Origin: a virus
Virus record (IMG/VR): IMGVR_UViG_3300038761_000006
Span: 1 to 46,326 of that record
Strand: one strand, 5' to 3'
DNA length: 46,326 bases
In this document: positions 4,209 to 46,326 of the stretch, piece after piece
Layout: each line of letters opens with the position of its first letter
Numbering within the stretch: position 1 is the stretch's first letter
Notes under the pieces: model-generated
Databases searched by the model: none
Told to the model about the DNA's origin: nothing
The model's input: the letters and a program-made list of their open reading frames with translations, nothing else
Translations under genes and position numbers: made by a program

Positions 4209-5254
4209 GTGAACTGACCCGCAAAAAGGCTCTTATTAAACGCGCTCAGCAATTGGCGATCAGTGACTATCTAACACTGGATAGCGAAACGCTGAATGAG
4301 CTACGCGGCCATTATGAGTCGAGCCTGGAAGAAATACTTACTATCCTGGCCTTTTACGGTGACAGCCTTAGTATTATTCGCCTGCAAAACCTGCAGGCGC
4401 TTCGCGGTGATGTTGAAAGGGTATTAGGTGAACTCAGCACATTGCAAGCGGCGTTACTCAATACCGGCATTGCCAGCGCGGCTAATATTGGCACCCGCCC
4501 GTTTTTAAGTTACAACACCGCGCAATCCGCCCTGGATATCAGCCAGCGTACCACACGGTTTGTGCAAACCTTTACCCACGCTGATGGGCTACAGTTATCC
4601 GACAGGCTCTGGATTTTAGACGACAGCCACAAAAACACCATTATTAGTGCCATTAACCGCGCCGTGATCATGGGTCAGTCAGCCAGCGAAGCAACGGCCG
4701 CTTTATTAGCCAATGGCGAACAGCCACCTAAATCCATGCTGGATAAAGTGAATGCCGCCAGTGAAGGCAATATTGGTAAGGTGCTCAAAGCCCAGTATTT
4801 TGATGAAGATGCCGCCTATTGGCAGGCACGGCGTATGTTTCGCACGGAAATTAATCGGGCGTATGGTATGGCCTATCAAAATAGTCTGGAAGAGGACGAT
4901 GATGTAATAGGCACCCGCTTTGTACTAAGCCCAAATCACCCACGGGTGGATATTTGCGATATGCATGCCAGTGTAAACCGCTTTGGTTTAGGTAAAGGTG
5001 TGTACCCGAAGGGTAAGAACCCTTGGCCAGCGCACCCCAACACACTTAGCTATGTGGAAGCTGTATTTGTGGATGAGGTGACCGACGAAGACCGGGCCGG
5101 GAAGGAAACCCGCATTGATTGGTTAGCTAACCAACCTTACAACCAGCGAGTAGGTGTACTGGGCGTGTATAAAACTAACCTGCTCCAAAATGACTTACTC
5201 AAAGAAACAATGATTAACAGCCGCGTTAAAACACTTAAAAGGCGCTTTGGCTAA
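4205..5254 (+). CDS. MuF-like head morphogenesis protein
   Basis: The 349-residue protein has an N-terminal helical half and a C-terminal Mu F / SPP1 gp7-type domain. That domain starts around residue 200 with RTEINRAYGMAYQ and continues with a Cys/His/Pro-rich segment (SPNHPRVDICDMHA, then GKGVYPKGKNPWPAHPN). Family members are minor head proteins bound to the portal and needed for head assembly or DNA delivery. ATGA overlap with the GroES-like gene couples their translation. A repeated promoter-like element follows it. Confidence 0.85.
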   Translation: MSELTRKKALIKRAQQLAISDYLTLDSETLNELRGHYESSLEEILTILAFYGDSLSIIRLQNLQALRGDVERVLGELSTLQAALLNTGIASAANIGTRPFLSYNTAQSALDISQRTTRFVQTFTHADGLQLSDRLWILDDSHKNTIISAINRAVIMGQSASEATAALLANGEQPPKSMLDKVNAASEGNIGKVLKAQYFDEDAAYWQARRMFRTEINRAYGMAYQNSLEEDDDVIGTRFVLSPNHPRVDICDMHASVNRFGLGKGVYPKGKNPWPAHPNTLSYVEAVFVDEVTDEDRAGKETRIDWLANQPYNQRVGVLGVYKTNLLQNDLLKETMINSRVKTLKRRFG

Positions 5255-5262
5255 CCTGGTTA

Positions 5263-5303
5263 AACTTTTACCCTAACTTTGCGCATTTCATCCTGACACA
5301 CTG
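5263..5303 (+). promoter_or_regulatory. Late promoter-like repeat, copy 1 (before capsid gene)
   Basis: This 41-bp stretch with core TTTTACCCTAACTTTGCGC recurs at 9857-9897 with a single mismatch. It lies between the MuF-like stop and the capsid gene start, about 30 bases before the ATG. It contains no clear sigma70 -35/-10 pair, so a phage-specific or activator-dependent promoter is likely. Function is inferred from position and repetition. Confidence 0.65.
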
Positions 5304-5332
5304 CCAATAAGTCATTGTTACAGAGTGTCACT

Positions 5333-7861
5333 ATGCGCAATTCCCGCACTATCCGTTTAGAAGCCTCACCCACCCGGGCTGTGCGCTTCCTGGCGTCGTC
5401 GGTTTCAGTGGATGCTGAACGACAAACCAGTACGGTAACCGTTACCCGCACCGGCCAGTTCTTTGATCCCCGTTATGGTGAATTTGAGATCACTCATACC
5501 ATGCTGCAAAGCATGATTGATAACTTTAACGGCAACGTGTTTGGGCAGGATATTTGTATTGACTGTGCACACGACCCGAGAAATGGCGCAGCTGGCACCG
5601 TTACCCGCCTGTTCCTGGATGGGAACAAACTGCGGGCTGAAGTAGCGTGGACTCCCTTTGGTTTAGAGCTCATTAAAGACAAAGGTTATCGCTACCTATC
5701 TGCCGAATTCAGTGAAAACTTTGTAACCAACGAGCACCCCTTTACAGAGCATGGCCCGACCTTATTGGCGGCTGGCTTAGTGGTGCGCCCTTGTATCAAA
5801 AATTTAGATCGGGTGGAGCTATCGGAATCAGATGATTTTGACGGCTTACAACTGATCAGCGAACAACTCGCGAAAGAATTCAAAGAGGATTTAGTTATGG
5901 ATAAGTTACTCCAACTGTTTGAAGCTGCGCTTAAAAACAAAAAGCTCAGCGAAGAGGCCATTTCACAGTGGGTGAACACGGCTAAAAAGCTTTGTGCCAA
6001 TGTTAGCGATGAAACTGAGCAGGAAGCACTAATTGATAACCTGCAGGAAACTGCGTTATCACTTGCCGAAAGCGGCCAGTCACAAACAATCACCCTTAAC
6101 CAACCTGGTTTGTCTGCGGAAGATGCGAAAGCCTTGTTTGCCGAATGGCAGGCTGATGCCGCCAAACAACTGGCCGATGCAGAGGCGAAAACCACCGCCA
6201 ACCGTAAGCTACTGACTGAAAAAATCAATGCGGTAGAAGGTTTCAGTGATGAAACGAAATCGGTACTTCTGGAATCAGCTGATCTGGTAACTGGCGATAT
6301 GAGCGAAAGCCAAATCACCGCCATGGCTAACCAGCAAATCAAGTTGGGCCAAAGCCTTGAGTCGTCTAAGAAGTTAGCGGGCATGGGCTTTAACGGCGGT
6401 CAGGGCCCAAGTGGCTCTGTTATTATTTCGTCTGCGCATAATGCTAATGCCATGAAACTGGCTGAAGACGTGCGTAAAAACCTGAAACAAACCAGCGCTT
6501 TTTCAAATGGCAGCATCCGCTTGTCAGAGCATGTTGACCCATTTGTGAATAACGTACTGTCATTGTTTGACAACCAGTACAACGACAAACTCAATCGTGA
6601 ATATAAAGTGCTCTCAGGTGAGGGCAATATCAGCGACACAGAACTGCCTTATGCATTCCGCCGTGAAGTGATACGCGAAGCGTTGCACGATATGAACATC
6701 CTACAGCTGGTCGCGACAAATACTGACCCAGGTGCTCAGGCCACAACACAGATCCCGTATGAAGAACGCAAGCCATTTACCACTATCAACGATGGTATTG
6801 TGTTTGAACGGGGCGCTATCCCTAAAGCAGGCGTGACCCAAAGAATGGACATGGCCTACATCAATGCGATGAAACTGGCATTTAATATCTCTGATGAAAT
6901 GATGCATTTTACCAAGGTGAGCAATGTTAACTGGGATTCATGGGGTCGCCACGTGGCCACCTGTTCACGGATCCTGCGTGAAATTATTGTGCGCCGCCTG
7001 GCTAACGAAATGCTGCGCATGAGTGATAGCTTTTCTGCAGGTACTACCTCTAACGAGAGTATTGCGTCACAATTGGATGGTAGCAATGCAACCATTAAAA
7101 CGGCTAATTTTCCGATTGTTCGCCCGCATACAGTCTATGATTTGCAGGGTAACGTTGTTGGCAGTACCACCAACCCAATTACTGTGGCATTTGGTGGAAC
7201 TACTATCGAACCATTCGATGGCACCGGCAACCAGTCCGCAGGCACCTATTGGGTGATCGATAACGTAAATTTAGGGTATATCGCCTTTGTGGACGAAAGC
7301 GGCGATGCTGTTATGCCTAATGAAGCAACCGCTACAATCAGTTACAGCTACGCCACCAACGTTGCCAAGTTTGATACCGCTATTGCCACTGGTTTAACGT
7401 TGGAGCAGCACCTTAACGGTCTGTTACGAAAAATTGGTTCACGTAAAGCACTAATGAAGGATGATCGCTACATTGCGCCCAATTTCCTGATGATGAGCAA
7501 TACCTTAAATGATACTTGTACCAACGCCGATCAATTTGTGGTGAGTCTAAAGCGTGACGGCTCAGACACAAACAACATGGGCGACCTGGTAAATGTGAAA
7601 GGTATTCCAGCATGGGGGACTAATGCCCCAGGTATTGATTTGGGCGATGAACGGATCCTGATGGGCGAACGTGGTACTACAAATTACGTGGTTGCCAAAG
7701 CGTTCGCTATCGGTGAAATGCAGGAAGGCCGCGATCCGACGACCGGTGAACTAAACGGTACGAAAGAAGCGTATGGAACCGAGTTTAATGCTATCCATAC
7801 GCCTAAGCCTTTAGCAAACCGCTACACGTCTGTACTGGCATACAGCGCAACCAATCGCTAA
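5333..7861 (+). CDS. Fused prohead protease - scaffold - major capsid protein
   Basis: One 842-residue frame carries three head functions. Residues 1 to ~170 resemble the Mu gpI-type prohead protease: a FDPRYGEFEITHTML start, a His in IDCAHDP (H80) and a Ser in YRYLSAEF (S123), the likely catalytic pair. Residues ~190-380 are Lys/Glu/Ala/Gln-rich and helical like a scaffold. From ~390 the protein looks like a major capsid protein (for example LPYAFRREVIREALHDMN, and a conserved end with GTEFNAIHTPKPLANRYT). ATG 5333 is chosen over an in-frame TTG at 5315. An internal ATG at 5897 with a strong SD (AAAGAGG) could give a separate scaffold-capsid product. A terminator follows the stop. Confidence 0.85.
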   Translation: MRNSRTIRLEASPTRAVRFLASSVSVDAERQTSTVTVTRTGQFFDPRYGEFEITHTMLQSMIDNFNGNVFGQDICIDCAHDPRNGAAGTVTRLFLDGNKLRAEVAWTPFGLELIKDKGYRYLSAEFSENFVTNEHPFTEHGPTLLAAGLVVRPCIKNLDRVELSESDDFDGLQLISEQLAKEFKEDLVMDKLLQLFEAALKNKKLSEEAISQWVNTAKKLCANVSDETEQEALIDNLQETALSLAESGQSQTITLNQPGLSAEDAKALFAEWQADAAKQLADAEAKTTANRKLLTEKINAVEGFSDETKSVLLESADLVTGDMSESQITAMANQQIKLGQSLESSKKLAGMGFNGGQGPSGSVIISSAHNANAMKLAEDVRKNLKQTSAFSNGSIRLSEHVDPFVNNVLSLFDNQYNDKLNREYKVLSGEGNISDTELPYAFRREVIREALHDMNILQLVATNTDPGAQATTQIPYEERKPFTTINDGIVFERGAIPKAGVTQRMDMAYINAMKLAFNISDEMMHFTKVSNVNWDSWGRHVATCSRILREIIVRRLANEMLRMSDSFSAGTTSNESIASQLDGSNATIKTANFPIVRPHTVYDLQGNVVGSTTNPITVAFGGTTIEPFDGTGNQSAGTYWVIDNVNLGYIAFVDESGDAVMPNEATATISYSYATNVAKFDTAIATGLTLEQHLNGLLRKIGSRKALMKDDRYIAPNFLMMSNTLNDTCTNADQFVVSLKRDGSDTNNMGDLVNVKGIPAWGTNAPGIDLGDERILMGERGTTNYVVAKAFAIGEMQEGRDPTTGELNGTKEAYGTEFNAIHTPKPLANRYTSVLAYSATNR
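5882..5899 (+). promoter_or_regulatory. Internal RBS and start inside the protease-capsid fusion
   Basis: AAAGAGGA at 5882-5889 is followed eight bases later by an in-frame ATG at 5897. The site falls exactly at the boundary between protease and scaffold-like region. Starting here would give a ~654-residue scaffold-capsid protein without protease, comparable to the nested scaffold gene Nu3 within lambda C. Confidence 0.55.
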
Positions 7862-38176: not shown

Positions 38177-38421
38177 TTGACACCCGATTCATTCAGGTGT
38201 AGCTTTTCAGGTACTAAAATATACAAGCGGTATTCCGCACCCGAAAGCCTTTGCGGTTTTTTTGTGCCTGAAAAGCAGTCACGCGCCATATTTTTATGGC
38301 GGGTTGAGAGGCGTAATACAATACCCGCAAGGGAAATAGGCCCGGAGCTACTTGTATAGCTTTAGTTGAGACCTGCCACCCAAAAGGTGGTGAATACTAC
38401 TTAAATATACAAGGCAATATT
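38177..38421 (+). ncRNA. C4-antisense-like structured leader between antirepressor genes
   Basis: This 264-base gap is full of pairing. GCTTTTCAGGTAC (38202-38214) pairs with GTGCCTGAAAAGC (38264-38276), enclosing GCGG-TATT-CCGC (38227-38238) and CGAAAGCCTTTGCG followed by T7. CGCCATA/TATGGCG (38284-38301) and CCACC/GGTGG (38376-38390) are further hairpins. CTTGTAT (38351-38357) is complementary both to 38221-38227 and to 38407-38413, the latter beside the SD of the next gene. A TTGACA at 38177 could start it. P1/P7 C4 RNA, which represses ant by antisense pairing to its leader, is the parallel. Identity as C4 is an inference. Confidence 0.5.
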
Positions 38422-38973
38422 ATGACAAACATTCAATCGGCCGAGTTACAGGCCAATACCAACCCGTTTCTTTACTCGAGTATTCAAATTAACACCGCCA
38501 TCGATGACAAAGGCGATGCCTGGTTAGTGGCAAAAGAGGTGTTTGAAGCCCTTGAAATTGCATGGAGAGGGACAAAAAGCCTGCAAAAACTGCCAGAAAC
38601 GTGGAAAGCTATACGGAGTTTCCGTACCCCTTCTGGCACTCAGGACACCATTTTCATAAACGAACCGGCCGTGTACATGGTGGCCTTTCGATCCAATAAG
38701 CCCGAAGCAGTTAAGTTTACCCAGTGGGTATGCGAAGAAGTATTGCCGGCCATTCGTCGCCAGGGCTTTTACGGTAGCGTAACGCTTAAAGAGCAAAACA
38801 CCCTGCGTAGCCAAAAAGTAAAGCTGCTGCAGCTGCTGGCCGCCACCAAAGACGCGTTTATGCACGACAGCTTAATAACCAGCCTGCGCAACGTAAGTAA
38901 CTTACTGGGTGAACCCATGCCAAGCACAGCTCTAATTGGTAAAGACGTTCGCCAGCTGCCGCTCGGGGTGTAG
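38422..38973 (+). CDS. Bro-N antirepressor-type protein
   Basis: The 183-residue protein carries a Bro-N domain at about 25-120 (DDKGDAWLVAKEVFEALEI, then WKAIRSFRTPSGTQDTIFI and NEPAVYMVAFRSNKPEAVKF with FTQWVCEEVLPAIRRQGFY). Bro-N proteins are common phage antirepressors and DNA-binding regulators. Together with the preceding P22_AR_N-like gene and the structured leader it forms an ant-type locus. An AAGG SD lies inside the ATACAAGG stretch that can pair with upstream RNA. Confidence 0.85.
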   Translation: MTNIQSAELQANTNPFLYSSIQINTAIDDKGDAWLVAKEVFEALEIAWRGTKSLQKLPETWKAIRSFRTPSGTQDTIFINEPAVYMVAFRSNKPEAVKFTQWVCEEVLPAIRRQGFYGSVTLKEQNTLRSQKVKLLQLLAATKDAFMHDSLITSLRNVSNLLGEPMPSTALIGKDVRQLPLGV

Positions 38974-39247: not shown

Positions 39248-39601
39248 ATGAAAGTTATTTTAATATTGGCAATGTGCCTGGCAGTACTATCGTGTAGTAA
39301 GAAAGGGCCACACCATCCAGATAAATGGGGCGCTTTGGTGGCGTGCCAGGATTCAGTTAAAAATCGTTTAAAAGACCCTCGAAGCGCAGAATTTGAGAGT
39401 TCTAGTAACGCCTCTATTACCGAGATAAAAAAAGTAAAGCTGGGTACTGGATATAAAACCACTTACCAGGTGCTCGGTTTTGTTTATGCAAAAAATTCAT
39501 TTGGTGGAGCAGTTCGCACAAAATATGGTTGCGATGTTATGGGGAGAACCCAGGAGAAAGGTTATCCAAAATGGACGGTATATAATGTGGTTGTTATGTA
39601 A
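39248..39601 (+). CDS. Putative lipoprotein (lysogenic-conversion type)
   Basis: The 117-residue protein has a signal peptide with a lipobox: MKVILILAMCLAVLSC, cleavage before C16, followed by SKKG. The mature part holds VKNRLKDPRSAEFESS, a pattern common in small bacterial lipoproteins and moron proteins. It stands alone between two terminators with its own AAGGA SD, as expected for a moron gene expressed in lysogeny. It may alter the cell surface or exclude other phages; this is inference. Confidence 0.75.
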   Translation: MKVILILAMCLAVLSCSKKGPHHPDKWGALVACQDSVKNRLKDPRSAEFESSSNASITEIKKVKLGTGYKTTYQVLGFVYAKNSFGGAVRTKYGCDVMGRTQEKGYPKWTVYNVVVM

Positions 39602-39604
39602 TAA

Positions 39605-39624
39605 GGGGCGTAAGCCCCTTTTTT
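39605..39624 (+). terminator. Intrinsic terminator at the group II intron 5' edge
   Basis: GGGGC (39605-39609) pairs with GCCCC (39614-39618) around a GTAA loop, followed by six T's. It ends the lipoprotein transcript. The group II intron starts directly after the T run. Confidence 0.8.
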
Positions 39625-40474
39625 GTTTGCCCAGCGAAGCTGGCAAACCCGTCAGGTTGAAAGAAACCTGAATCACCCTGACTGAGGGGAAGATAATCCG
39701 AATGGCAAGGGCGTTGTTGGCCAACGGCAGGGTCTGAAGGAAGCCATAGGAAGTTAGAGGTACACAACGCAAGTGAACCTGATTCGGCAAGACAGGAGGG
39801 TAAGCGTGCAAAATAGCGCGAAGCCCGATACTCAGTCAGTCCTGTTTTGTGTTTGAGGGTGGAATTTCTAACAGGGAGCCAGTGCAGTAACTGGGGAAGC
39901 CTGGCATTAGATCCAATCAAATGGTTGGACGTATCGTTCAAGGAGTGATCCAAGAATGTTGCGAGTGTGAGGTGGCAGATGAACCCGTAGTAGTGAGTAA
40001 GGCTAGGCCGATGAAAGCCAGTAATGGTGTGGAGGGTAAAACCAAGCCGACTATCAGCATTGTGTTTGATAGGATCTATTTTAGCCAAAAGCTTAAATGG
40101 ATTGCGAAGGGGGGAAGCAGACTTTAAGACTCTGATGAGTTGTGAGTTTTTTTATCATTGATACACAAGCCGCCAGATCAGCGGGACAAGTCGAATCGGT
40201 GCGCTAGGAATAGTGATGTCTGGTGAGACAGGCCGTATATGGGAAGTAATTGTAGTCAAATTTGGTAGATTGCCTCAGTGCTAGAACGCCAAACCCTGCA
40301 ATGAAAGTTACCACAATGTTAGAAAATGAACGATGTCCATAGGGCGCACGATACTAGATTGCAAATTAGCATTGTGTCACTTAGCAAGTGATATGAAGTA
40401 TGCAGGAGCCGTATACGAGGCCCGTACGTACGGTTCTGTGAGAGGGATGAGGCGCAAGCCTCACCCTACTCGAT
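39625..40474 (+). mobile_element. Group II intron without reverse transcriptase gene
   Basis: About 850 bases without a credible gene show group II intron features. Near the 3' end, GAGCCGTATACGAGGCCCGT (40406 on) with ACGTACGGTTC is domain V including the AGC triad. Domain VI follows at 40442-40474: GAG/CTC, AGGG/CCCT and TGAGGC/GCCTCA arms with a GCAA loop, a bulged A at 40468 seven bases from the end, and a CTACTCGAT 3' end. The 5' side (GTTTGCCCAGCGAAGCTGGC) and the GTCTGAAGGAAGCC segment are like bacterial intron domain I. The domain V tip is shorter than usual. No RT frame is present, so mobility would need help in trans. Start just after a terminator T run recalls intron insertion behind terminators. 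Confidence 0.8.
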
Positions 40475-40616
40475 AATCGTCGTTTGCGGCGTCTATACAG
40501 GTATTAATTAATTCGTGTAACGCCTGGTAATGATCACTATCATTTTCTTCCATAACTACCAGTAAATCCTTTATTGATGTAAGTAAATTGCTTACCAGAT
40601 ATAATTTATAATCCAT
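40461..40616 (-). CDS. Small acidic protein, 3' end made by the intron
   Basis: This 51-residue minus-strand frame has AGGAAG six bases before ATG (cat at 40614-40616). The product is helical and acidic (MDYKLYLVSNLLTSIKDLLV, then MEENDSDHYQALHELINTC). The last codons (from about 40474 downward) come from the 3' end of the group II intron, so the natural C-terminus was probably cut by the intron insertion. It lies downstream of the XRE gene on the same strand. Confidence 0.6.
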   Translation of the reverse strand: MDYKLYLVSNLLTSIKDLLVVMEENDSDHYQALHELINTCIDAANDDYRVG

Positions 40617-41109: not shown

Positions 41110-41470
41110 CGGACAATTTAAGCATTAATTCGCCTTACTTTTTGTATGTTGTTGTTTTTATTTGTTTATTTTTTATTGCGCCTTTTGTTCCTGTCCATTT
41201 TCGTGTTGATTCTGTCCGTTTTTGTGTATTTGTTGCCCGTTTTCGTTGTTTTTTGATTCGGCCTTTATTTATTTATTTATTTTTTTCTTTAAAAAGAAAG
41301 AGATAAAAATAATAGTAAAGGTGGGCTGTCCGGATTGATTTTAGCTATCTGGTCGGAACTGTCCGGAAAAAATTGAGGTGATCGGTTTTTTCGGACAGTT
41401 TCGGACAGGCCTTTACCCTTGTTTTGCGCGGCCTGCATGGCTAAAAAAGGGGAAATGTCCGAATGTCCGG
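41110..41470. repeat. Array of about ten TGTCCG motifs before the tyrosine integrase
   Basis: CTGTCCG or its complement occurs at 41110 (reverse), 41191 (CTGTCCA), 41212, 41233 (TTGCCCG), 41326, 41359, 41392 and 41402 (both reverse), 41456 and 41464. The three at 41191, 41212 and 41233 are exactly 21 bp apart, with GTTTTCGT following. AACTGTCCG-g-AAAAAA (41357-41372) and TTTTTTCGGACAGTT (41386-41400) form a 15-bp inverted repeat with one bulge. Arm-type integrase sites, an operator array or iterons are all possible. The rest of 41006-41497 is AT-rich and holds no gene. Confidence 0.65.
41411..41429 (+). promoter_or_regulatory. Possible fourth copy of the late promoter-like element
   Basis: CTTTACCCTTGTTTTGCGC matches CTTTACCCTAACTTTGCGC of the other copies at 16 of 19 bases, the three mismatches being adjacent. 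It lies 69 bases before the tyrosine integrase start. It may be a chance match. Confidence 0.35.
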
Positions 41471-41497
41471 AAAAATCTGCCCCTGGGGGATATTTAT

Positions 41498-42496
41498 ATG
41501 CTGGATCACATTGAACAGTGGTTGCAGAAAAAAGTGCTAAACGAAGGCAAGTCAGACGAAACGGCAAAAAAATACCGCTATTACCTGCACCTGTTAAACG
41601 ACTTTTTCACCGAACTGGACATTAACTACCTGTTGGCAACCAATAAGCAGCTGGAAAGTTTTGTTGGTTTGTACCTGCATAAAAAGAAGCTGGCACCGCG
41701 CAGCCGGCGAACGGCAGTGGCAGCGGTGAAAGGGTTTTATAATTACTTAGATAGTGAGCATATCTGCCAAAGCAATGTGGCAGCGAGTTTACCCTATCCA
41801 GCAAGCGCTAACCGGATCCCGGTGGCGATGGGGCTAAAAAATTATGAACGGTTGCTGCAACAATGTGACCTGGACACCTTCACCGGTATTCGTGATGCGG
41901 CTATGCTAGCGCTAATGGGCGGTTGTGGTATTCGCCTGGCGGGCCTGACAGGGTTAAACCAGGGCAATGTTATTGTTTACGACTACAACGGCACCGAACG
42001 CCTGGCAATAAAAGTAATCGAAAAAGGCAAAAAAGAGCGGGTATTACCCGTACCGCTGGAAGCCCAGGTTTATTTGCGGGTATATATTGGCCACCCAGAG
42101 CTAAAACATATTAATCGCACCTTACCCAATGGCGACCAGGTGTTATTTGTCAGCACGCAAAATCGCAATGTAAACGAGTGGGATTATTACGGCGAAGCCA
42201 GGCGGATAAGCCGCCGTTCAGTTCAAAAAATGCTAACAAAGCTTGGCGAACGGGCAGGTGTTCCAGCTAATCAGTGCCACCCGCACGCCCTACGCCATTT
42301 AACCGGCGCCGAATACGCCGAAGAGGATCTTGATATCTTAACGCGGCAAATCCTATTGGGCCATAAAGATCCCAAGGCAACTGAAATATACACACAGCTG
42401 GCCCTGCGTAAGTTAACCAGCCAGGTTGATAAGGCCAACCCATTAGGCAAGGTAAAAACCGCTGTTACGCCGCTTATCGACGCGCTGCGTTCGTAA
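41498..42496 (+). CDS. Tyrosine integrase/recombinase, full length
   Basis: The 332-residue protein has an N-terminal SAM-like core-binding domain (residues 1-100) and a catalytic domain with R146 (GCGIRLAGLTGL), a Lys in EKGKKERVLPV (about 176-179), H263 and R266 (HPHALRHLTG), H289 (LLGHKDP) and nucleophile Y298 (EIYTQLA). The sequence is XerC/D-like in size and order. ATG 41498 has a GGGGGA SD nine bases upstream; the longer frame from 41378 runs through the TGTCCG array. It overlaps the convergent RHH gene by 23 bases. It probably serves a nested element or plasmid-like module rather than the tRNA-Asn junction. Confidence 0.9.
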   Translation: MLDHIEQWLQKKVLNEGKSDETAKKYRYYLHLLNDFFTELDINYLLATNKQLESFVGLYLHKKKLAPRSRRTAVAAVKGFYNYLDSEHICQSNVAASLPYPASANRIPVAMGLKNYERLLQQCDLDTFTGIRDAAMLALMGGCGIRLAGLTGLNQGNVIVYDYNGTERLAIKVIEKGKKERVLPVPLEAQVYLRVYIGHPELKHINRTLPNGDQVLFVSTQNRNVNEWDYYGEARRISRRSVQKMLTKLGERAGVPANQCHPHALRHLTGAEYAEEDLDILTRQILLGHKDPKATEIYTQLALRKLTSQVDKANPLGKVKTAVTPLIDALRS

Positions 42497-42928: not shown

Positions 42929-43807
42929 TTAAGCCGCTTGCTGTGTAATTTGTTGTGCACCTTCTAAAAGGTATTCACACGCCGCCTTTGCTTTGCTGCT
43001 GGCGGTGAATATGGCTTTTTTGTCCTGCTTTAATACTTTGATCCAGCTTTGCAAGTACGCGGCATGTTGCAGCGTGTTTAATTCTACGTCCAGCTGCGCA
43101 CACAGGAACGCTGAGCCCATTTCGGCTATCAGCTCTTCAAATGCATAAGCAGCATCGCCAAAACGGCCGGTAAAATCGCGTTCCAAACGTGCCTTGTGCC
43201 CGGTCCAATGGGTTAATTCATGGGCTAACGTTGCGTCATATAATGCGGCCTCTTTAAATTGTTCCTGATGCGGCATAGCAATATAGTCGCGGGCCGGTGA
43301 GAAAAACGCTTTATTACCGCCATGAATCACGCTTGCACCGTTCGCCTGGGCAACTTCAAGCACAGTTGTATTATTAATTTCATTTGTAGCAGGAAGCGCT
43401 GCAATTTTGTTGCTATCGATGTTTTCACACTGCGCCAGGTTAAACACCGTGTAATGTTTTAAGAAGGGGATTTTTTCAATTTCACCGGTGTCTTTATCTT
43501 TCTTCTCAATCCAGTTCCAGAACACCACCAGGTGGCCAGACTCACCGCGTTTTACATTGCCGCCCATAGCTTTAGCCTGCTTGTAAGTTACATATTGCTG
43601 TGTTTCGTAGTGAAAGCCATCAGCCCAAAGCAGCATTAAATTAATACCGTTGTACGTTTTACCAGTGCTGGCATTGTGGGGAACCATGATGTTAGTTGCT
43701 GCTTTGCGATGCTCCCAGGGCTTTAACCAGGGAATATTGCCAGATTCCATTGCTGATACGATTTTGTTAGTTACTTCTTGATAGATATCACGTTTAGCCT
43801 TAGCCAT
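42929..43807 (-). CDS. ardC: ArdC-type antirestriction protein
   Basis: The 292-residue protein has an N-terminal ArdC single-strand-DNA-binding domain (about 1-130: IYQEVTNKIVSAMESGNIPW, then TGKTYNGINLMLLW and YVTYKQAKAMGGNVKRGESG) and a C-terminal zincin-like peptidase domain with HELTH at 196-200 and EELIAEMGSAF at 224-234. ArdC proteins on plasmids and phages protect incoming DNA from restriction. ATG 43807 is chosen because GAGGA lies six bases before it; an upstream start at 43831 lacks this. A strong palindrome lies about 90 bases upstream. Confidence 0.88.
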   Translation of the reverse strand: MAKAKRDIYQEVTNKIVSAMESGNIPWLKPWEHRKAATNIMVPHNASTGKTYNGINLMLLWADGFHYETQQYVTYKQAKAMGGNVKRGESGHLVVFWNWIEKKDKDTGEIEKIPFLKHYTVFNLAQCENIDSNKIAALPATNEINNTTVLEVAQANGASVIHGGNKAFFSPARDYIAMPHQEQFKEAALYDATLAHELTHWTGHKARLERDFTGRFGDAAYAFEELIAEMGSAFLCAQLDVELNTLQHAAYLQSWIKVLKQDKKAIFTASSKAKAACEYLLEGAQQITQQAA

Positions 43808-43894
43808 TTTATCCTCACTTAAGCCGCGCACTGTGTACCGGCTTTTCAGTTGGTTGATGTGGTTTAGTTACTCATCATTGCTGATGTGTTACTT

Positions 43895-44751: not shown

Positions 44752-46326
44752 ATGACCAAAAAGTGTGTAATTTATGCAAGGGTTTCCACTGCGAAACAGG
44801 CAGAAAAGGAACTCCCAGTACAAAGTCAGATAGGAAAATGCCAACAGCACGCTAAGGAACTGGGCTTAGAAGTTGTGAAGGTATTCACAGATGAAGGCAT
44901 TTCAGGTACATCAGATAACCGGCCCGCATTCCAACAAGCCATAACCTACTGTGAAAACTTTGACATTGATTACTTCATTTGCTGGAGCACATCACGGTTT
45001 GCAAGAAATTCACTTGAAGCAAAGCTAAATAAGCGCAGATTAGCCAGCAGCAATACCAAGATATCCTATGTGTCACAAAACATTGATGACGGCGATTCTG
45101 GCTTCATTTACGAGGGTATTTTAGAGCTCTTTGACGAGTATTATTCACGGCAGGTATCACAAGATACGAAACGATCGATGATTGCGAATGCACAGAAAGG
45201 TTTTTTCAACGGTGGTTATGTAACGTATGGCTACCAGGTTAAACCAGCAATAACAGACCGTAAAAAGCAAATGCTTGTACCTAACCCGCTCGAAAGTGGC
45301 ACAGTAAATCGAATTTTTGAATTAAAACTGGCCGGCTATGGAGGCAAACAAATTGCCGAGGTCCTAAATGGGGAAGGGCGACTTAAACGCGGCAGTAAAT
45401 GGACAAAGACAACCGTCCTAGAGCTACTACGTAACGAAAGGGTGGTAGGACGTATCGCTTTCGGTAAAAAAGGCCGTGACGGTGCTTTACCGCGCTCAGA
45501 ATGGATTGTTGTGGATAGCCATGAGCCGATAGTAAGCATAAAGACTTTCGAAGCGGTTCAGGCCATGATGGATGAACAAACAAATGTTGGCGTTAAAGAG
45601 CATGGATCACCTAAAAGCACACGATTTTTTACCGGTATATTAAAATGCGGAAAGTGTGGATCGGCCATGACGATTGAAAGGGCTAAGGGCGCCACAAAAG
45701 TGTATTACTATTACAATTGCAAAACTAAAAAGCAGGGAGGCGGTTGCGAAAACCGCAGAATCAACTCAGCTATATTTGATCCCTGGATGGTTGACGTTAT
45801 TTGCGCTGAAGTACTCACGGAAAAAAACCTGAAAAGCTTATTGGTTCAATTAAACGACTTGTGTGGATCCTGGGCGAAAAAGAAGCGAGAAAAATGCCAA
45901 GAGATTGCTGCGCAAATTAGAGACTTGGAGCGCCGTAATTCTCGTTTATACGAATTACTGGAAGATCCGGACGGTGAATATAATGTTCAGGACTTAGGCC
46001 CGCGACTTCGCTCTAATAATGCGTCTATTCGAAAGCTAACGACTGAATTAACATTAGCAGAGCAGGAACAACCACCGCAGCTCGAAATAACAGAAAGAGA
46101 TTTGAGCGAGCTTAGCGAACTGCTTATAGACATCATCAAAACCACTAAGAACCCCAGTAAAGTACGTACTTTTTTCCGTAGTTTCATTAACTCAATTCAA
46201 TTGAGAGATGATGATATTTTTGTTGAGTATCGTCCAGAAGCCTTGATTTCTGCCAACTCTGGGATAGTTCCCAGTGAGAAAAACTGGCTCCCCCTCCCCG
46301 ACTCGAACGGGGGACCTGCGGATTAA
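44752..46326 (+). CDS. Large serine recombinase, probable prophage integrase
   Basis: The 524-residue protein has an N-terminal resolvase domain (YARVST with nucleophile S12, SRFARN at 81-86), a recombinase domain (about 155-260, GGYVTYGYQ onward), a zinc ribbon (C299, C302, C323, C332), a long coiled coil (about 375-440) and an acidic end. That is the layout of large serine integrases, which join attP and attB without long arm sites. The final codons (WLPLPDSNGGPAD) and the stop are read from the antisense strand of a tRNA-Asn 3' part, so the gene runs into the attachment site. It lies at the right end of the prophage as expected for an integrase. Confidence 0.92.
   Translation: MTKKCVIYARVSTAKQAEKELPVQSQIGKCQQHAKELGLEVVKVFTDEGISGTSDNRPAFQQAITYCENFDIDYFICWSTSRFARNSLEAKLNKRRLASSNTKISYVSQNIDDGDSGFIYEGILELFDEYYSRQVSQDTKRSMIANAQKGFFNGGYVTYGYQVKPAITDRKKQMLVPNPLESGTVNRIFELKLAGYGGKQIAEVLNGEGRLKRGSKWTKTTVLELLRNERVVGRIAFGKKGRDGALPRSEWIVVDSHEPIVSIKTFEAVQAMMDEQTNVGVKEHGSPKSTRFFTGILKCGKCGSAMTIERAKGATKVYYYYNCKTKKQGGGCENRRINSAIFDPWMVDVICAEVLTEKNLKSLLVQLNDLCGSWAKKKREKCQEIAAQIRDLERRNSRLYELLEDPDGEYNVQDLGPRLRSNNASIRKLTTELTLAEQEQPPQLEITERDLSELSELLIDIIKTTKNPSKVRTFFRSFINSIQLRDDDIFVEYRPEALISANSGIVPSEKNWLPLPDSNGGPAD
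46285..46326 (-). tRNA. Partial tRNA-Asn (3' part), likely attachment site
   Basis: Read on the minus strand, the last 42 bases give anticodon-loop TTAA, stem TCCGC, variable loop AGGTC, T arm CCCCG-TTCGAGT-CGGGG, acceptor AGGGGGA and GCCA. Anticodon positions 35-36 are TT and the loop equals that of tRNA-Asn(GTT). The 5' part lies beyond the window. The tRNA 3' end is a usual integration site and the serine recombinase frame ends inside it. Confidence 0.85.

Follow-up and report, generated by a model that had tools for sequence, protein, structure and literature searches.

The window, i.e. the whole stretch of 46,326 bases that was analysed, is a viral record with genes for a head maturation protease, a portal-like protein, a tape-measure protein, a tail fibre, a primase and an integrase. 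Because of the head protease, portal-like, tail, primase and integrase genes, it is likely a temperate siphovirus-like phage. The right 6.8 kb of the window recurs with 100% identity on one contig of a MAG (G001) from an uncultured Alteromonas, and the two sequences may derive from the same source material. Within this part, a group II intron lacking a reverse transcriptase (RT) gene lies between a lipoprotein-like gene with its terminator and a small convergent ORF (Table 1). The hairpin (39603-39620) and the T-run (39619-39624) stand directly 5' of the intron and fold with -12.6 kcal/mol (z -3.6). The split stop turns the product of the small ORF from 47 aa (ending in AANDD) into 51 aa (ending in AANDDYRVG), with no further coding damage. 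Related IMG/VR phages share the genes neighbouring the intron; in one of them, IMGVR_UViG_2899557523_000001, the homologue of the lipoprotein-like gene ends at most 18 nt from the homologue of the small ORF with no intron between, so that, as gene order, the phage locus also exists intron-free. The phage and its MAG hold one copy each, and no second phage copy was obtained by exact-pattern scans of IMG/VR or by blastn in phage and E. coli collections.

Table 1 Features of the intron locus (positions of the window)
Feature	Positions	Strand	Basis
Lipoprotein-like gene	39248..39601	+	Upstream of the intron
Intrinsic terminator of the lipoprotein-like gene (7-bp stem, GTAA loop, T-run); target and 5' exon, IBS1 being the U-run	39603..39624	+	Fold, sequence
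RT-less group II intron (putatively IIC-type), 850 nt	39625..40474	+	RF02001 and RF00029; ends from G027 copies
Domain I, 5' part	39625..39883	+	94-100% per 50-nt block to RT-carrying introns from Alteromonas; 99% overall to G027 RT copy L222
Candidate EBS1 loop CAAAAU, complementary to the terminal T-run of the exon	39809..39814	+	Read from sequence, inferred
Reduced D2-D4 without ORF	40104..40402	+	Homology over its length confined to the other RT-less copies
Domain V, AGC triad 40407-40409, short tip	40405..40439	+	RF00029, fold
Domain VI, branch-point A 40468	40440..40474	+	RF00029, fold
Small convergent ORF, TAA stop split by the insertion; homologues in related phages	40461..40616	-	Sequence comparison

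The intron is complete, as seen from the Rfam matches, the fold and the exact ends taken together. The cmscan search yielded RF02001 (group-II-D1D4-3) at 39714-39883 with 62.4 bits (E 3.2e-10; gathering cut-off 32) and RF00029 (D5/D6) at 40404-40474 with 47.5 bits (E 2.3e-6; gathering cut-off 40). The D5-D6 region folds with -37.6 kcal/mol, compared with -21.8 +/- 3.0 for shuffled sequences (z -5.3, 0/200), D5 exhibiting, besides its AGC triad, a 2-nt bulge and a short tip (3 bp, 5-nt loop), and D6 a bulged A seventh from the 3' end. Both edges are exact, as copies inserted elsewhere, at unrelated sites, have the same ends, GTTTGCCCAGCG...CCCTACTCGAT, and the empty sites are seamless. The 3' end, AT, fits the AY rule; the 5' end is GTTTG versus the usual GUGYG, the same departure being found in the RT-carrying relatives. 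Base pairing is backed by a compensatory change in D1, A39797-U39840 in the window corresponding to U-A in the copies of the Alteromonas genome G027, as well as by 21 pairs with compensatory changes in the consensus fold of D2-D6, the latter being modest evidence as it comes from five sequences. The candidate EBS1 is constant across the family, the exons of which end in 5-7 T. It should be noted that a preceding sequence-only reading had already called a group II intron with these limits, its bulged A, the absence of an RT frame and the terminator T-run ahead of the 5' edge, all of which agree with the present results; the covariance search it had proposed as a check gave both Rfam matches above the gathering score. 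It had also described the D5 tip as shortened, which is correct. Degeneration as the cause was rejected, since this tip is shared by the RT-carrying relatives.

Concerning the missing gene, no RT frame is present in the intron, its longest ORF on the + strand counting 68 aa, and tblastn with a related RT found no match on the identical MAG contig, which carries this intron. A remnant of the ORF in D4 was also considered and rejected, the comparison of nt 665-785 with the end of the RT gene revealing weak gappy similarity only in local alignment, and the tblastn result being negative. The reduced D2-D4 retains a GTAGATTGCC...GCTAGAACGC motif, which in the RT-carrying relatives sits just before the ORF. 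As judged from sequence and fold, the ribozyme is complete (D1, reduced D2-D4, D5 and D6) and the RT/maturase gene is gone. The MAG holding the phage, which may be incomplete, contains no close RT (best identity 37%), which may leave the intron stranded there.

The RT-carrying relatives are about 2.09 kb long, encode an RT/maturase of about 423 aa and occur both on plasmids and in chromosomes, their hosts including Alteromonas, Pseudoalteromonas, Marinomonas and Vibrio, among others. Their RTs consist of the RVT_1 and GIIM domains only, with no endonuclease domain. Among solved structures, the best matches are the GsI-IIC RT (272 bits) and the group II RT/maturase 7uim (262 bits), LtrA scoring 155. 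Kinship of the RT, the terminator target—known as IIC behaviour (PMC4424553)—and the shortness of D5 speak for a IIC-type intron, the class being judged by RT kinship and targeting rather than by a full tertiary model. The class B-like character that the sequence-only reading had seen in D5 was thereby its weak part. Other terminator-associated RT types, i.e. g6, U1 and U2 (PMC8919778), may be alternatives to class C for the family RT. As a separate observation, a second group II intron, carrying an LtrA of its own, interrupts the YADD codons in the RT gene of one RT-carrying relative, located on the resident Vibrio parahaemolyticus plasmid pVPH2 (L123, ~4450-6320), and forms a nested twintron with it.

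A scan of 60 Alteromonas genomes led to G027, a single 4.48-Mb contig with copies of the 850-nt RT-less form. Of its 13 family 5' ends, seven belong to RT-less copies, six of them full-length and one duplicated internally, and the other six to RT-carrying copies (2.09 kb), four of which possess intact YADD frames of 434-442 aa. The full-length RT-less copies are 97-99% identical to the window intron and, copy-specific lesions aside, only 0-2 nt apart from each other; L214 bears a copy-specific insert of 14 nt. The window intron differs from the RT-less copies of G027 by 10 nt in 850, with the above-mentioned compensatory pair (39797/39840) included. In L212 (C1:1271906-1272756), also RT-less, the 3' strand of D5 is scrambled from GTACGTACGGTTC to GTAGCATAGTGTTC, the rest being intact, and this copy is probably dead. 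The copy with the internal duplication, L218 (C1:2467545-2468728), has nt 84-400 repeated in tandem and reaches 1184 nt in total.

A hairpin with a T-run directly precedes the window intron and all 15 relatives checked—13 in G027 and those from G220 and G249, two other Alteromonadaceae. The insertions in G027 are exact to the base after T-runs, with unrelated flanks and no target duplication; the L214 site is empty and uninterrupted in ten Alteromonas genomes (83-91%), and an empty L218 site is present in several. All 13 G027 copies follow one rule of orientation, being on the + strand where the GC skew is positive (0-2.25 Mb, with dnaA at 0, the contig start) and on the - strand in the negative-skew remainder, the sign of the skew changing between 2.25 and 2.4 Mb. 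This 13/13 orientation fits fork-primed retrohoming by RTs without an endonuclease, although a part of the bias may just reflect the orientation of genes, terminators being located 3' of them.

Full-length RT-less relatives are found in G220 (82%) and G249 (81.5%), collinear with the window intron over nt 1-850, and a 3' half of an RT-less intron is found in G058. The D2-D4 region exhibits full-length homology only among RT-less copies, i.e. those from the window, G027, G220, G249 and G058. Since the reduced D2-D4 recurs in the older copies (82%) of two other Alteromonadaceae, the RT-less introns are, on these alignments, a lineage rather than a one-off deletion. The lineage is sparse, because samples of about 400 genomes of the family and about 400 genomes of the order contained no further RT-less relatives except weak fragments. 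A close RT is at present found in G027 and G058 and not in G220 or G249. Two contigs of G058, C5 and C31 (L226 and L264), carry half introns covering nt 1-502 and 493-850 that adjoin transposon-like ends, which suggests that a transposon has inserted into an RT-less copy of this genome. In G249 (L263, 843-1813), the RT-less intron runs straight into a second, more diverged copy represented by its first 130 nt, as if a new copy had homed to the same terminator ahead of the old one. An intron of ~875 nt from an unrelated Proteobacteria MAG (G002, L079; also L228) has D5 and D1 of the same family (72% in D1) and, like the window intron, no RT. Its D2-D4, however, does not match that of the window intron, so it has probably lost its ORF independently.

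The first part of domain I tells a different story from the remainder of the molecule. Over nt 1-250, the identity of the window intron and the RT-less copies of G027 to RT-carrying introns of Alteromonas amounts to 92-100% in each 50-nt block, the window intron being 99% identical to the G027 RT copy L222. The G220 copy is there 94-100% identical per block to an RT-carrying intron from Marinomonas, with those from Pseudoalteromonas nearly as close. Past about nt 280 the RT-less copies resemble each other, the boundary lying at about nt 259-283. For nt 1-250, the evolutionary trees reject both a single RT-less clade (AU p 1e-54) and a clade of the window, G027 and G220 copies (5e-85). For nt 251-490, the latter clade is supported (96/86) and a single clade of RT-less copies could not be rejected (p 0.31). 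A tree that groups the RT-less copies of the window and of G027 with the RT-carrying copies of G027 is rejected for this segment (p 3e-4). The differences between the window intron and the RT-less copies of G027 are also concentrated in the 5' part (7/250 versus 3/600 elsewhere; Fisher p 0.009). In six of these seven cases the window intron matches at least five of the six G027 RT-carrying copies. The alignments and trees show that the 5' part of domain I (~250-280 nt) has had a separate history, tracking the RT-carrying introns. Less certain is the process behind it, which would be an exchange of domain I between RT-less and RT-carrying introns by template switching of the RT or by DNA recombination, in either direction. 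It should be pointed out here that contig C5 of G058, considered as a clean case of 5' exchange, was downgraded: its 3' half is missing, probably via the transposon, and it shares nt 131-389, not 1-250, with the RT-carrying copy of G058. A strict exchange of the 5' end only, as simple template switching predicts, is therefore not established.

The anatomy of the window intron, its distribution and the precedent of Thermosynechococcus elongatus (PMC2882425) argue for mobilisation in trans, and the intron is very probably a non-autonomous IIC-type group II intron moved by resident IIC-like RTs. The RT/maturase of a resident RT-carrying relative would bind the RT-less RNA and aid its splicing, whereupon the lariat would reverse-splice into the strand with the U/T run of a terminator (EBS1 CAAAAU versus IBS1 TTTTTT). 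The same helper RT would then copy the inserted intron, using a replication-fork primer since it has no endonuclease domain. The temperate phage would probably have gained its copy in an Alteromonas host possessing such an RT and could bring it into helper-free hosts. Exchange of domain I, a less certain step, would preserve the match between parasite and helper. The sequence-only reading had offered mobilisation in trans or a dying copy. The former is now favoured, seven near-identical RT-less insertions standing beside four intact RT-carrying relatives in G027, and the latter is disfavoured because of the multiple copies in G027 and of the lineage, 82% identical, common to Alteromonadaceae. 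The comparison with phages lacking the insertion, likewise proposed there, led to the locus empty by gene order in a related phage, and the search for an RT-carrying relative gave no close RT in the MAG and six RT-carrying copies in the related genome G027.

A dying copy would mean that the phage had received an RT-carrying intron, the ORF of which was then lost by deletion, leaving it inert. The single copy in phage and MAG and the lack of a close RT in the latter would agree with this; the same RT-less form, however, occupies seven sites in G027 and occurs, diverged, in G220 and G249, there is no recognisable remnant of the ORF, D5/D6 and the ends are intact, and decay looks different where it is seen, e.g. 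in the broken D5 of L212. This makes such an origin unlikely. Even less credence can be given to a self-sufficient RT-less intron that would splice by itself, stay immobile and play a regulatory role at the terminator, for which an independent RT-less intron, C.te.I1, might serve as a parallel (cited in PMC4424553). The ribozyme is indeed intact, the MAG has no close RT and the position is harmless to genes, but the fresh spread of multiple copies at unrelated G027 terminators indicates mobility for the same sequence class, and no position is conserved between hosts. The mosaic domain I implies that recombination or template switching between copies does occur, which leaves room for their spread by transposition or recombination at the DNA level instead of retrohoming. 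The base-exact insertions after T-runs, unrelated flanks, missing target duplications and the 13/13 orientation with replication, fitting fork-primed group II retrohoming, render it the least probable of all.

Preferring mobilisation in trans, a broader picture can be drawn, albeit only tentatively and with the odds somewhat against it in full. The long-lived RT-less terminator-targeting lineage of marine Alteromonadaceae might be a bacterial counterpart of SINEs, a parasite of resident IIC-like RTs that would repeatedly swap a part of its domain I for that of the local RT-carrying intron, by template switching or recombination, in order to stay matched to its helper, with temperate phages as vehicles.

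RT-less group II introns are described as rare in bacteria, and they occur in genomes with related RTs (PMC4424553). In T. elongatus, mobility assays revealed that such introns are mobilised in trans by 'driver' RTs (PMC2882425), the TeI3 introns being driven by the TeI4 RTs. As here, these are multicopy RT-less introns from one event of ORF loss, present beside RT-carrying relatives. The T. elongatus RTs are, however, closest to the EcI5 RT (53-55%), whereas the family RT here is IIC-like. Moreover, the available text of that report describes no terminator targeting, in contrast to the terminator targets, the one phage-borne copy and the exchange of domain I in the present case. Class C introns such as GsI-IIC likewise insert directly 3' of terminators, use an RT without an endonuclease and are biased to one replication strand (PMC4424553, PMC8919778), the window intron differing from them by the absence of the RT gene, the very short D5 tip and the 5' GTTTG instead of GUGYG. 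Group II introns of phages were systematically documented only in 2025 (PMC12350094). According to the available text of that study, six of 20 are RT-less, one (OQ555808) occupies a typical IIC position after a phage terminator and has, like the window intron, D1D4-3 among its Rfam matches, and mobilisation in trans was suggested for the Listeria jumbophage LPJP1. Unlike the phage introns described there, the RT-less terminator-targeting lineage of the window intron shows multicopy spread in a bacterial chromosome.

RT-less introns beside related RTs, mobilisation in trans, terminator targeting by class C and RT-less or terminator-associated phage introns have thus already been published (PMC4424553, PMC2882425, PMC12350094). 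In the literature searched, with subscription papers outside the search, no description was found of an RT-less terminator-targeting family in Alteromonas or of domain I exchange with helpers. What is new, on the comparisons presented above, is that the RT-less introns have a different history over their first ~250-280 nt, where they track the RT-carrying ones. The mosaicism of domain I is a concrete testable claim on the co-evolution of ribozyme parasites with the RT. With RT-less and RT-carrying forms together, many copies, empty sites and a phage carrier, the family offers a natural system for studying helper compatibility and spread by phages.

The phage itself has some further features. 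It encodes both a tyrosine integrase (41378-42496, +) and a large serine recombinase (44752-46326, +), the latter at the right end of the record, where a tRNA attachment site was suspected and discarded, no tRNA being detected by ARAGORN. An ArdC-like antirestriction protein is encoded at 42929-43831 (-). Just upstream of a BRO-N gene, at 38298-38385 (+), there is a match to the Rfam family sRNA-Xcc1 (55.8 bits; cut-off 53). Several related IMG/VR phages share the surrounding stretch, 38177-38774, at 73-83% identity, against only ~66% in the integrase region, so that a conserved phage small RNA at this position is possible.
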